From: Halolamina litorea
GTDB lineage: Archaea > Halobacteriota > Halobacteria > Halobacteriales > Haloferacaceae
Assembly: GCF_026616205.1 (NCBI RefSeq)
Contig: NZ_JANHGR010000001.1
Span: 1,240,001-1,304,000 of the forward strand
Length of the DNA stretch: 64,000 bases
Direction of reading: 5' to 3'
Shown: piece by piece, positions 8,427 to 63,449 of the stretch
Numbering within the stretch: position 1 is the first letter of the stretch
How the letters are laid out: each line of letters starts with the position of its first letter
Translations under genes and position numbers: made by a program
The notes under the pieces: model-generated
Told to the model about the DNA's origin: nothing
Databases searched by the model: none
The model's input: the letters and a program-made list of their open reading frames with translations, nothing else

Positions 8427-8677
8427 GCGAGGCCTGCGAGGAGCAGCGCCACGAGGCGACGCTCTCGACGACCCACGACGATCCGGGGGTCGTCGCGGCC
8501 GCGCTCGCTCCCGACAACACCGATGCGATGACGACGGCCGTCGACGGCGACGCGGTCCGGACCACCATCGCCCGAGAGGGTGCCGGTGGGCTGGCCGCCT
8601 CCGTCGACGACTACCTCGTCAACCTCACCGTCGCCGACGCCGTCTCCGAGACGGCGCGCGACACCGACAACTCATGA
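8423..8677 (+). CDS. pcc1: KEOPS complex subunit Pcc1
   Basis: An 84-residue protein with the two-strand/helix pattern of Pcc1 (HEATLSTTHDDPGVVAAAL early, then LAASVDDYLVNLTVADAV). Pcc1 is the dimerisation subunit of KEOPS (Kae1-Bud32-Cgi121-Pcc1), which makes t6A at position 37 of ANN-decoding tRNAs. Cytoplasmic. It overlaps the RecJ-like gene upstream and rps3ae downstream by 4 nt each, the usual haloarchaeal arrangement. Confidence 0.88.
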   Translation: MSEACEEQRHEATLSTTHDDPGVVAAALAPDNTDAMTTAVDGDAVRTTIAREGAGGLAASVDDYLVNLTVADAVSETARDTDNS

Positions 8678-9297
8678 GCGAGAAATCCACCACGATCGAA
8701 GGCAAGCGATGGTACACCGTGCTCGCGCCCGAGCAGTTCGACCGGGCCGAACTCGGTGAGACCGTTGCGGAGGAACCGAACCAGGTCGTCGGCCGCACCA
8801 TCGAGACCACGCAGGGCGAGATGGAGGGCGACCAGGGACAGAACAACAACAAGCTCACGTTCAAGATCAACGACGTGGGTAGCGACGCCGCCTACACCGA
8901 GTTCATCAAGTACGAACTCACGCGGGACTACCTGCGCTCGCTGGTCCGCCGCGGCGCCTCGAAGGTCGCCGCCAACGTCACGCTGCTGACGACGGACGAC
9001 TACCGCGTCCAGATGCAGCCCGTGGCGCTGACGACCCAGAAGGCAGACCGCTCCCAGGAGCAGGCGATCCGATCGGTGATGGTCGACATCGTCGAGAACG
9101 CCGCCGAGGAGCGTAGCTTCGAGCAGCTCGTCGACAGCGTCGTCGAAGGCCGAGTCTCCTCGGCCATCTACGGCGAAGCAAAGGAGATCTACCCGCTGCG
9201 ACGCGTCGAGGTCCAGAAGCTCACCCTCGAGGCCCGACCCGCCGAGGTCGCCGCCGAGGAGGAGGCTTCCGTGGACGTCGACGAGAGCGCCGAATAG
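8674..9297 (+). CDS. rps3ae: 30S ribosomal protein eS1 (S3Ae)
   Basis: A 207-residue archaeal eS1. It begins MSEKSTTIEGKRWYTVLAP and contains the family segments GRTIETTQGEMEGD, NNKLTFKINDV, DYLRSLVRRGASK and IYPLRRVEVQKL. It lies on the small-subunit platform near the mRNA exit. Last gene of the uS15 operon. The TAG stop (9295-9297) lies in the loop of a 12-bp hairpin, and the same frame stays open for 22 further sense codons to TAA at 9364-9366, ending in an acidic DEDEVDLE tail, as if the C-terminus had been cut short by an insertion. Confidence 0.95.
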   Translation: MSEKSTTIEGKRWYTVLAPEQFDRAELGETVAEEPNQVVGRTIETTQGEMEGDQGQNNNKLTFKINDVGSDAAYTEFIKYELTRDYLRSLVRRGASKVAANVTLLTTDDYRVQMQPVALTTQKADRSQEQAIRSVMVDIVENAAEERSFEQLVDSVVEGRVSSAIYGEAKEIYPLRRVEVQKLTLEARPAEVAAEEEASVDVDESAE

Positions 9298-9333
9298 GCG
9301 CTCTCGTCTGCCCACGAGAGCTTCGCTCTCGTG
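9280..9333 (+). repeat. Two consecutive, mutually exclusive hairpins across the rps3ae stop codon
   Basis: Arm A GACGAGAGCGCC (9280-9291) pairs perfectly with arm B GGCGCTCTCGTC (9297-9308) around loop gaata. Arm C CACGAGAGC (9313-9321) pairs with arm D GCTCTCGTG (9325-9333) around loop ttc. B can instead pair with C (GCTCTCGT with ACGAGAGC). The segment is bracketed by direct repeats acgtcgacgag (9275-9285 and 9335-9345), exactly 60 bp apart. It could be a palindromic insertion, a terminator or a switch. Confidence 0.7.
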
Positions 9334-9388
9334 AACGTCGACGAGGACGAAGTCGACCTCGAATAAGGCTCCGCAGCGATTCACGCGC

Positions 9389-9401
9389 TTTTCGTCTTTT
9401 T
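9389..9401 (+). terminator. T-rich transcription terminator after rps3ae operon
   Basis: ttttcgtcttttt, downstream of the paired hairpins and before the convergent halocyanin gene. Short T tracts are typical archaeal termination signals. Confidence 0.5.
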
Positions 9402-9444
9402 CAGCCAGCCAGCGACGGCGCCGGCGTTCGCTCGCAGGCTTCGA

Positions 9445-17882: not shown

Positions 17883-18643
17883 GCGACGACGCCGACGCCG
17901 GCTGGGACGACCGACCGACGCAGGCCGACCGGGGCGCGCAACGGGAGGGGCTGGCAGGGCCGGAACCGACCGACCGACCCCGGCCCAGCGGGCGCCGATC
18001 GAAACAGGGGGTCCGGATCGACCCCGAGGCGGAGGCCAGCCACCCGGCCCGCCGGACCACCATCTCCGCTCTCGTGAAACACGAGCCGGGGGTGCTGGCC
18101 GAGGTCGCGGGGCTGGTCAGCCGGCGGCAGTTCGACATCGACTCCCTGACCGTCGGGCCGACGACGAACCCAGAGACCGCCCGGATGACCCTGACCATCG
18201 AGGAGCCCGAGCCGGGGGTCCGGCAGGTCGAGAAGCAGTTGGAGAAGCTCGTGCCGGTGATCTCGGTCCGCGAACTGGGCCGGGACGCCGTCCGGCGGGA
18301 GCTGGCGGTGCTGAAGGTCCACGACGACCGGCCCGCCGCCGTCGAGTCCGTCGTCGAGATGTTCGACGGCGAAGTGCTCGACGCCCAGCCGGGGACGGTG
18401 ACCGTCGAGGTCACCGGCAGTTCGAGCGAGGTCGACCGGGCCGTCGAGGCGTTCCAGCGCTTCGGTGTCCGGGAGCTCACCCGCACGGGCACGGGGGCGC
18501 TGGCCCGCGGGACCGAGTGGACGACCGACGCCGAGGCCGACCGCTACGAGCGACAGGCGAGTTCCACGACCGGGACGACGAACAGCGCGACTGACCGACG
18601 GACCACGACGACGGCGCCTGAAACGCCGACCGACGATGACTGA
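17879..18643 (+). CDS. ilvN: Acetolactate synthase, small (regulatory) subunit
   Basis: A 254-residue protein built around an ACT domain at about residues 58-130 ([34 protein letters not shown]) and the IlvN C-terminal domain ([34 protein letters not shown]). It binds IlvB and confers feedback inhibition by branched-chain amino acids. Longer than the usual 160-170 residues because of a disordered polar N-terminus (about 55) and a Thr/Ser-rich C-terminus (about 45). Its ATG overlaps the ilvB stop and its end overlaps ilvC by 8 nt. Confidence 0.94.
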
Positions 18644-62048: not shown

Positions 62049-63449
62049 TCAGAACACGAGCGTGTCGATCACCACCGCGAGCAACACGCCGCCGAGGTAG
62101 GCGTTCGAGGCGTGGAACGCACGGAACGCCGCCGCCTCGGTGCGCTCGAAGTGGAGTCGGACGACCGCCCAGAGGAACACCGCCGCGAGGGCGACGCCGA
62201 AGGCGACGAACAGCCAGTCGAGGCGGGCCGCGAGCGCCAGCGCGGCCGACGCAGCCAGGGTGGCCCCGAGGTACCACAGGATGTGTCGCCGGGTGGTCGT
62301 CTCGCCGCGCACGACAGGCATCATCGGGAAGCCGCCGGCCGCGTAGTCGTCCTTGTAGGCGAGCGCGAGGTTGTAGAAGTGTGCGGGCGTCCAGAGGAAC
62401 ACGACCGTCGCGAGGCCGATCCCACCCCAACCGATCTCGCCGGTGACGGCGGCCCAGCCGATCAGTGCGGGGAGCGCGCCGGCGGCGCCGCCGATGACGG
62501 TGTTCTGGACGGTGTTGGGCTTGAGGATCAGCGTGTAGACGACGCTGTAGAACGCGATGGCGGTGATCCCCAGCACGGCCGCGAGCAGGTTGATCGAGGC
62601 GAACAGGCCGACCGAGATGGCGGCGAGCACGAGGCCGAACGCCACGGCGTTCCGGACGGGCACGAGGTCGACCGCGAGCGGGCGGTCGCTGGTTCGCTGC
62701 ATCCGGCGGTCCACGTCGCGTTCGAGGACGTGGTTGAACGTGCCGGACGCACCGATCGAGAGCGCGCCGGCGGCGAGCGTCTTGGCGACTACGGGAACGG
62801 TGAAGTTCGCGCCGCCAGCCAGCGCCATCGCCGCCGAGGCGACGAGACAGAGCAGCCACATCAGCCGCGGCTTGGTCAGGCGGAAGTAGGCCGCGAGCTT
62901 GGCCTTCGTCCGGGGCCAGCCCGGATCCGGGAGCTCCGGCGAGGGCGTGTCCTCGACCGGCGGGAGTTCGTCGTCGATGGGGTCCTCGGGCGTGTCGTCG
63001 GGGTCACCGGTGGCCGCCTCCAGGGACCACGCGAGCGCGGCGAGGACGCCGCCGAAGATGGCGACGCCGAGCGCGAGGTGCAGCGTCGAGACGCCGGCGG
63101 TCGCGCTCACGGCCGTCGTGGCGATGATGGCGCCGACGCCCGACTGGAGCGGGAACAGCGCGAGGGCGACGAGGAGTGCGCCCTTGACGCGCCGGGACTC
63201 CCCACGGCGCCACGCGACGGCGGTGGCAGCGAGGAGCAGGAGGCCGACGACGCCCGCGCCGATGCGGTGGCCGAGCGCGAACCAGCCGTCGGCGGAGGTC
63301 GGGAGCGCGAAGCCGCCGCCACAGGCTGGCCAGCCGCTACAGGCTGCCGCAGCGTCGGTGATGGCCGTAGTCGCGCCGACGGCGACGAGGAGGTACACCC
63401 CCATCGCGGCCGCCGCGAGCAGGCCGGCGAACTGGCGGTCGGAAGTCAC
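62049..63449 (-). CDS. ctaB: Heme A synthase-like (CtaA) and heme O synthase (CtaB) fusion
   Basis: A 466-residue membrane protein. Residues 1 to about 150 form a four-helix CtaA/Cox15-like half with CSGWPACGG, GHRIGAGVVG and LHLALGVAI (His ligands). Residues about 150-180 are an acidic Pro-rich linker. Residues about 185-466 are the UbiA-family farnesyltransferase CtaB with NHVLERDVDRRMQRTSDRPL and LWTPAHFYNLALAYKDDYAAGG. It makes heme O (and perhaps A) for terminal oxidase. GTG 63449 lies 27 nt after gataaat. Divergent from coxB. Confidence 0.9.
   Translation of the reverse strand: MTSDRQFAGLLAAAAMGVYLLVAVGATTAITDAAAACSGWPACGGGFALPTSADGWFALGHRIGAGVVGLLLLAATAVAWRRGESRRVKGALLVALALFPLQSGVGAIIATTAVSATAGVSTLHLALGVAIFGGVLAALAWSLEAATGDPDDTPEDPIDDELPPVEDTPSPELPDPGWPRTKAKLAAYFRLTKPRLMWLLCLVASAAMALAGGANFTVPVVAKTLAAGALSIGASGTFNHVLERDVDRRMQRTSDRPLAVDLVPVRNAVAFGLVLAAISVGLFASINLLAAVLGITAIAFYSVVYTLILKPNTVQNTVIGGAAGALPALIGWAAVTGEIGWGGIGLATVVFLWTPAHFYNLALAYKDDYAAGGFPMMPVVRGETTTRRHILWYLGATLAASAALALAARLDWLFVAFGVALAAVFLWAVVRLHFERTEAAAFRAFHASNAYLGGVLLAVVIDTLVF

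Follow-up and report, generated by a model that had tools for sequence, protein, structure and literature searches.

In-frame palindromic insertions in conserved proteins are best known from Rickettsia, and the double-hairpin elements of fungal mitochondria are mobile units of two adjacent hairpins with variable stems. The CGTC-tagged REPs of bacteria, mostly alpha-proteobacteria, have CCA tails, form dimers, lie in part within genes (the copies in genes described with them include Rickettsia RPE-4 and RPE-6) and come without a dedicated transposase (Di Nocera et al. 2013, PMC3733652); the part of that paper available to us mentions no archaeon. A survey of bacterial and archaeal REPs published in 2025 (PMC12306157) contains, in its accessible part, no word beginning with Halo, and a review of MITEs that treats Rickettsia elements in genes (PMC10969869) names no such archaeal case in the sections available. 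Transposase-free, dispersed haloarchaeal elements, some with palindromes near their ends, are represented by the PATEs, SMRs and MITEs of Haloquadratum walsbyi; according to the available part of their description, the SMRs are about 80-110 bp long, possess terminal inverted repeats and often lie within other mobile elements, and the PATEs have a longer body with palindromes close to its ends (PMC3119063). We found no prior report of the haloarchaeal element family described below in the literature searched, which lay mostly outside subscription journals.

The family is exemplified by a feature at the end of the gene for eS1 in a window of the Halolamina litorea genome (the whole stretch of DNA analysed, 64,000 nucleotides, whose positions are used throughout; table 1). 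Judged from sequence, this feature very probably represents a member of a family of mobile palindromic elements of haloarchaea, each about 45-63 bp long, that has inserted into the gene and supplies its stop codon.

Table 1. Features at the 3' end of eS1 in the window.
Feature	Position	Strand	Basis
eS1 (rps3ae); present translation ends VDVDESAE*	8674..9297	+	ORF; Pfam Ribosomal_S3Ae E 7.5e-60
60-bp inserted element of two hairpins (boundaries fixed to within one direct-repeat length)	9280..9339	+	covariance model match 9276-9337, E 5e-13; missing from five congeners
Hairpin 1, 12-bp stem, loop GAATA	9280..9308	+	pairing and folding
TAG stop supplied by the element	9295..9297	+	ORF
Linker TGCC (family consensus TGCCA)	9309..9312	+	comparison of copies
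Hairpin 2, 9-bp stem, loop TTC	9313..9333	+	pairing and folding
Direct repeat ACGTCGACGAG, left copy	9275..9285	+	exact repeat
Direct repeat ACGTCGACGAG, right copy	9335..9345	+	exact repeat, 60 bp from left copy
Relic of the former eS1 C-terminus (DEDEVDLE, TAA)	9340..9366	+	matches uninterrupted VDVDE-EDADLE* of G006
GATTCACGCGCTTTTCGTCTTTTTC, T-rich, 3' of eS1; likely terminator, outside the element	9378..9402	+	similar form at other Halolamina eS1 loci

An earlier note on this DNA had described a 12-bp hairpin holding the TAG in its loop. The stem is indeed perfect, with GACGAGAGCGCC (9280-9291) pairing to GGCGCTCTCGTC (9297-9308) at 12/12 positions around GAATA (9292-9296), but just the T and the A of the stop lie in the loop and its G opens the right arm. 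The second hairpin of 9 bp (9313-9321 with 9325-9333, 9/9 pairs) had been recognised correctly, as had the direct repeats exactly 60 bp apart and the frame that runs on past the TAG (ALSSAHESFALVNVDEDEVDLE*, 22 codons open up to 9366) to an acidic end. Further downstream, the T-rich motif GATTCACGCGCTTTTCGYYTTTTTC (9378-9402) recurs in nearly identical form 3' of eS1 in Halolamina loci, preceded by variable sequence.

The gene for eS1 was found in 193 of the 197 relatives searched. When the eS1 C-termini are aligned, as the earlier note had proposed, two of the seven Halolamina genomes have an insertion at the same place, namely the present one (G000, 60 bp) and G002 (63 bp), and five have none; in G006, for example, eS1 ends VDVDE-EDADLE*, matching the relic VDVDE-DEVDLE* left by the insertion in G000. 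The net change at eS1 is thus a clean insertion, with translation now ending SAE*. The stop-bearing hairpins 1 of G000 and G002 are one base apart, their hairpins 2 are entirely different, and the frames past the stop differ as well. Both genomes fall outside a clade formed by the five empty ones (100% support), the placement of the root being poor (42%). The suggestion that a palindromic element had entered the C-terminus of eS1 and added a stop is thus borne out by one congener filled at the same site, five empty ones and many copies elsewhere; the pattern that the note had named as contrary to it, with relatives sharing stop and hairpins and no copies elsewhere, is not what we observed.

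The genome search for similar elements that had likewise been proposed indeed uncovers many copies beyond eS1. The core of the eS1 hairpin, with <=1 mismatch, recurs in six of the seven Halolamina genomes (the backwards control gave 0 matches), and the same two-hairpin layout occurs at many places in all seven, between genes and also in frame within genes. From inspected copies this layout is (N)TC-[hairpin 1]-TGCCA-[hairpin 2]-GACG, with CGTY as the left end. An exact palindrome search recovered the family only partially, the stems being variable, and BLAST with the whole region was noisy below the best dozen matches; a covariance model was required. The one that we used was built from 17 copies chosen for good stems, in which pairing holds in 98.0% of 306 cells and changes on both sides are seen at 12 of the 19 pairs. 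It finds 39 matches in G000 at E<=0.1 (both strands counted), corresponding to about 18 distinct places at E<=1e-6, and 15 to 147 matches per Halolamina genome (39, 25, 147, 108, 15, 113 and 41 in G000 to G006; 488 summed). Across the order, 282 of 293 genomes have matches at E<=0.01 and about 258 at <=1e-6, the copy numbers being lower bounds as 19 candidates were scored per genome. In a sample of 120 genomes from the phylum, all 19 belonging to the order match; outside it, 10 of 101 genomes match weakly (best 2.2e-6) and none of the 101 at <=1e-6.

Searched with one copy as a query, 72,556 plasmid records yielded eight matches, all haloarchaeal and from seven genera, and the 50,697 records of a phage collection yielded none. 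A pattern search did match 32 viral contigs, but these loci look like chance, because none of the 32 scores with the model at E<=0.001. Two further candidates in the window (18349-18403, E 0.005; 62786-62844, E 0.009) are weak model matches and were taken as chance. Scanning seven loci against Rfam 15 with E up to 5 returned three matches below threshold, all lying outside the element. In G006 (L059, 1452-1561) and G003 (L254), two or three elements follow one another head-to-tail in tandem; the G006 array is in frame, close to where a long frame for a membrane protein ends.

Among 154 distinct copies from the genus, the left end is CGTT in 64, CGTC in 58 and TGTC in 15, and the right end is GACG in 107; among 153 copies the linker is TGCCA in 95 and CGCCA in 28. 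Where a classical MITE has the terminal inverted repeats of a known transposon, this element has just CGTC and GACG at its ends; the search for a parent transposon covered PF01797. Comparison by eye of filled and empty sites suggests that (N)TC^GAC becomes (N)TC-[hairpin 1 TGCCA hairpin 2 GACGYC]-GAC; a short target duplication would be indistinguishable from a GACG end brought by the element, because target and element share letters.

An unpaired CGTC end, a stem of 8-9 bp, a CCA-type tail, dimers, copies in genes and the lack of a dedicated transposase are all shared with the CGTC-tagged REPs, as far as the available part of their description extends (PMC3733652). According to the same source, however, the REPs have the motif at one end (the haloarchaeal element has it at both outer ends), their dimers are mostly head-to-head and rarely tail-to-tail (here always tail-to-tail, with one shared TGCCA), and their stems nearly always start with AT pairs and enclose loops of 4-5 bases, whereas the stems of hairpin 1 mostly start with G-C followed by A-T (position 1 is G-C in 111 of 153 copies, and position 2 of hairpin 2 is C-G in 105 of 153) and loops are often of three bases. 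By analogy with that description, the haloarchaeal element would work like the CGTC-tagged REPs; we do not claim common descent. With the Rickettsia palindromic elements it shares in-frame insertion in many unrelated protein genes that stay intact, with empty sites for four hosts; the Rickettsia elements differ in being bacterial, about 150 bp long for those described, and split into several families (PMC3733652 and PMC10969869, in the parts available). In contrast to PATEs and SMRs, the present element consists entirely of its two hairpins and is often hosted by protein genes. The element shares its two-hairpin plan with the fungal elements, which are mitochondrial.

The use of genes as hosts was surveyed in the same 154 copies, fetched from among the 488 matches of the genus, with a codon score trained on 30 ORFs of the window. 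Clear coding flanks on one strand were found for 17 copies, 15 in register and two (L084, L246) out of register. In every one of the 15 in-register copies the length is divisible by three, the element is in its plus orientation and the same frame is used, roughly DVDES-RLSSANQ-SGDVD. As 94 of the remaining 139 copies are also a multiple of three long, divisibility alone is weak evidence (binomial about 0.003), and the bias in frame and strand says more. Other frames are open in these inserts too (frame +1 in 14, the three reverse frames in 12, 14 and 13), and none of them is used. The use of one frame may reflect the target, since GTC^GAC is normally read as Val-Asp in these acidic proteins, or it may reflect selection for acidic, polar peptides.

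Four host genes of G000 illustrate such insertions. Its ABC transporter reads RFY[DVDESRRLSSANQTQSD]DVDSGAV where all six congeners have RFYDVDSG or RFYDVDDG, and the 17-aa insert also corresponds to a gap of 17 residues in ABC transporters of solved structure. A 15-residue insert in a rhodanese has an empty counterpart in 6/6 congeners; an insert in an amidohydrolase is missing from 6/6, in a variable region, and one in a HAD hydrolase from the 5/5 congeners found. The domains of the host genes are still recognised by Pfam. At the level of sequence, these four cases are insertions into ordinary conserved genes, and for the ABC transporter and the rhodanese the empty sites in congeners prove the insertion. 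A 53-bp copy in G005 (L036, 1470-1524) lies in a frame that looks, by eye, like a glyoxalase-type gene, and would break it. In two Halolamina genomes (L075 of G001, L076 of G004) and in a genome from another family (L123 of G232), the C-terminal part of a MazE/AbrB-like antitoxin gene contains an in-frame copy of almost the same sequence (GVDESRRLSSANQNA.RSGDVD); this near-identity suggests that the gene probably moved between families carrying the element.

The ends of some genes have been struck more than once within Halolamina: those of eS1 (G000, G002), cyclophilin (G000, G006) and DnaK (G001, G003). At the cyclophilin end, G000 has a tandem pair, G006 is also filled and the other five genomes of the genus are empty. 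The stop lies in hairpin 1 at both the eS1 and the cyclophilin ends, and the old cyclophilin stop, TAA in the empty G004, is GAA in the filled G006, which would be expected of a stop that has fallen out of use. Among 392 genomes of the order, exactly three contain the inner 17 bases of the stop-bearing hairpin, namely at eS1 of G000, eS1 of G002 and cyclophilin of G006, with a different hairpin 2 at each; hairpins therefore seem to be exchanged as whole modules. The DnaK stop need not derive from the element, because the end DDES* is also found in another genus (G055). The dnaK stop was also seen within a short palindrome where the full element was not seen (L207 of G000, L213 of G055), which may be a remnant of the element or a separate tendency of acidic gene ends.

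Whether the hairpins matter as RNA can be judged from their stems. In 153 of the 154 copies (one, not divisible into two hairpins, was dropped), the 2944 stem cells comprise 2867 Watson-Crick, 23 G-T, 23 A-C and 31 other. The equality of G-T and A-C argues against upkeep as an RNA fold and fits recent spread or correction at the DNA level; the covariance model scores G-U above A-C, and the detection of copies is thus biased against this conclusion.

It is improbable that the eS1 copy has been co-opted to mark the 3' end of the transcript or to stabilise this RNA. Its position between the eS1 stop and the T-rich stretch would suit such a role, and bacterial REPs, in the available account, are mostly placed behind genes (PMC3733652), but the five congeners without the element keep the T-rich stretch and the stems have no excess of G-T over A-C. 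Very unlikely is the other reading offered by the earlier note, a structured RNA switch in which competing hairpins control termination or readthrough into the acidic DEDEVDLE tail. The region 9270-9345 does fold very stably as RNA (-51.6 kcal/mol, z = -7.45, 0/200 shuffles equally stable), 22 codons are open past the stop, and the middle arms can pair (9300-9307 with 9314-9321, 8 bp), because both hairpins use the letters ACGAGAGC. The hairpins claimed to be mutually exclusive nevertheless have no competitive alternative in isolation: when forced, it reaches -45.3 kcal/mol, 6.3 kcal/mol worse. Against the switch, moreover, most copies of the dispersed element have no stop nearby, lying between genes or within other genes without one, G-T cells are as rare as A-C cells, the frame past the eS1 stop differs in G002, and the old cyclophilin stop behind the element has become GAA in G006. 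Slippage or template switching at repetitive acidic codons, producing a 60-bp duplication with palindromes and no mobile element, would fit the direct repeat, which is common acidic coding sequence, and the joint changes of paired positions, as template switching in a hairpin would cause, but is hardly credible given that the same two-hairpin layout and TGCCA recur at numerous unrelated sites, among them intergenic ones and plasmids from seven haloarchaeal genera. Template switching may be the way in which stems stay perfect after insertion.

We thus favour a mobile element, for which comparison of genomes documents the repeat family, the insertion in eS1, the empty sites and the in-frame host genes. 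Two back-to-back hairpins joined by TGCCA, with CGTC on the left and GACG on the right, would enter (N)TC^GAC sites and bring their own GACGYC at the right end. Harmful insertions in genes would be lost, leaving intragenic copies that are in frame, in tolerant loops or acidic tails. At eS1, a copy entered the acidic tail codons GAC GTC GAC GAG, and the in-frame stop of its hairpin 1 would end translation with SAE* inside the element, making the old tail an untranslated relic; we infer that this change is tolerated rather than useful. Movement would depend on an enzyme acting in trans. The Y1 transposase (PF01797) was rejected as the mover, with no match in G000 and G001 (one in G002, fragments in G003, and 1, 10 and 4 matches in G004, G005 and G006) and no relation to copy number. 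On the Haloferax mediterranei plasmid pHME132 (L379, 1201-1310), two tandem elements extend up to an annotated IS6 transposase gene and overlap its start; IS6 was also set aside as a candidate, this single adjacency not being repeated at the four other plasmid copies viewed. One of these four has an IS1595-type gene about 660 bp away.

A broader scenario, which we put forward tentatively and would not yet back over its alternatives, sees these as selfish, haloarchaea-wide double hairpins that target GTC^GAC, usually in-frame Val-Asp in Asp-rich proteomes. This would pre-adapt them to insertion into genes in a single open frame (roughly DVDES..LSSANQ..SGDVD); at gene ends they would take stop-bearing forms, and whole hairpins would be swapped as modules. 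If true, the elements would add in-frame stretches to archaeal proteins over the long term, with a putative enzyme as their mover. A compact family carries out Rickettsia-like in-frame insertion across the haloarchaea. Close relatives have clean empty sites, and the hosts include a ribosomal protein, cyclophilin, DnaK and an ABC transporter. Short insertions that lack an explanation, and shifts of stop codons, would be accounted for in haloarchaeal proteins by the element, whose culturable hosts offer a setting in which to seek the mover of REP-like elements without a transposase.
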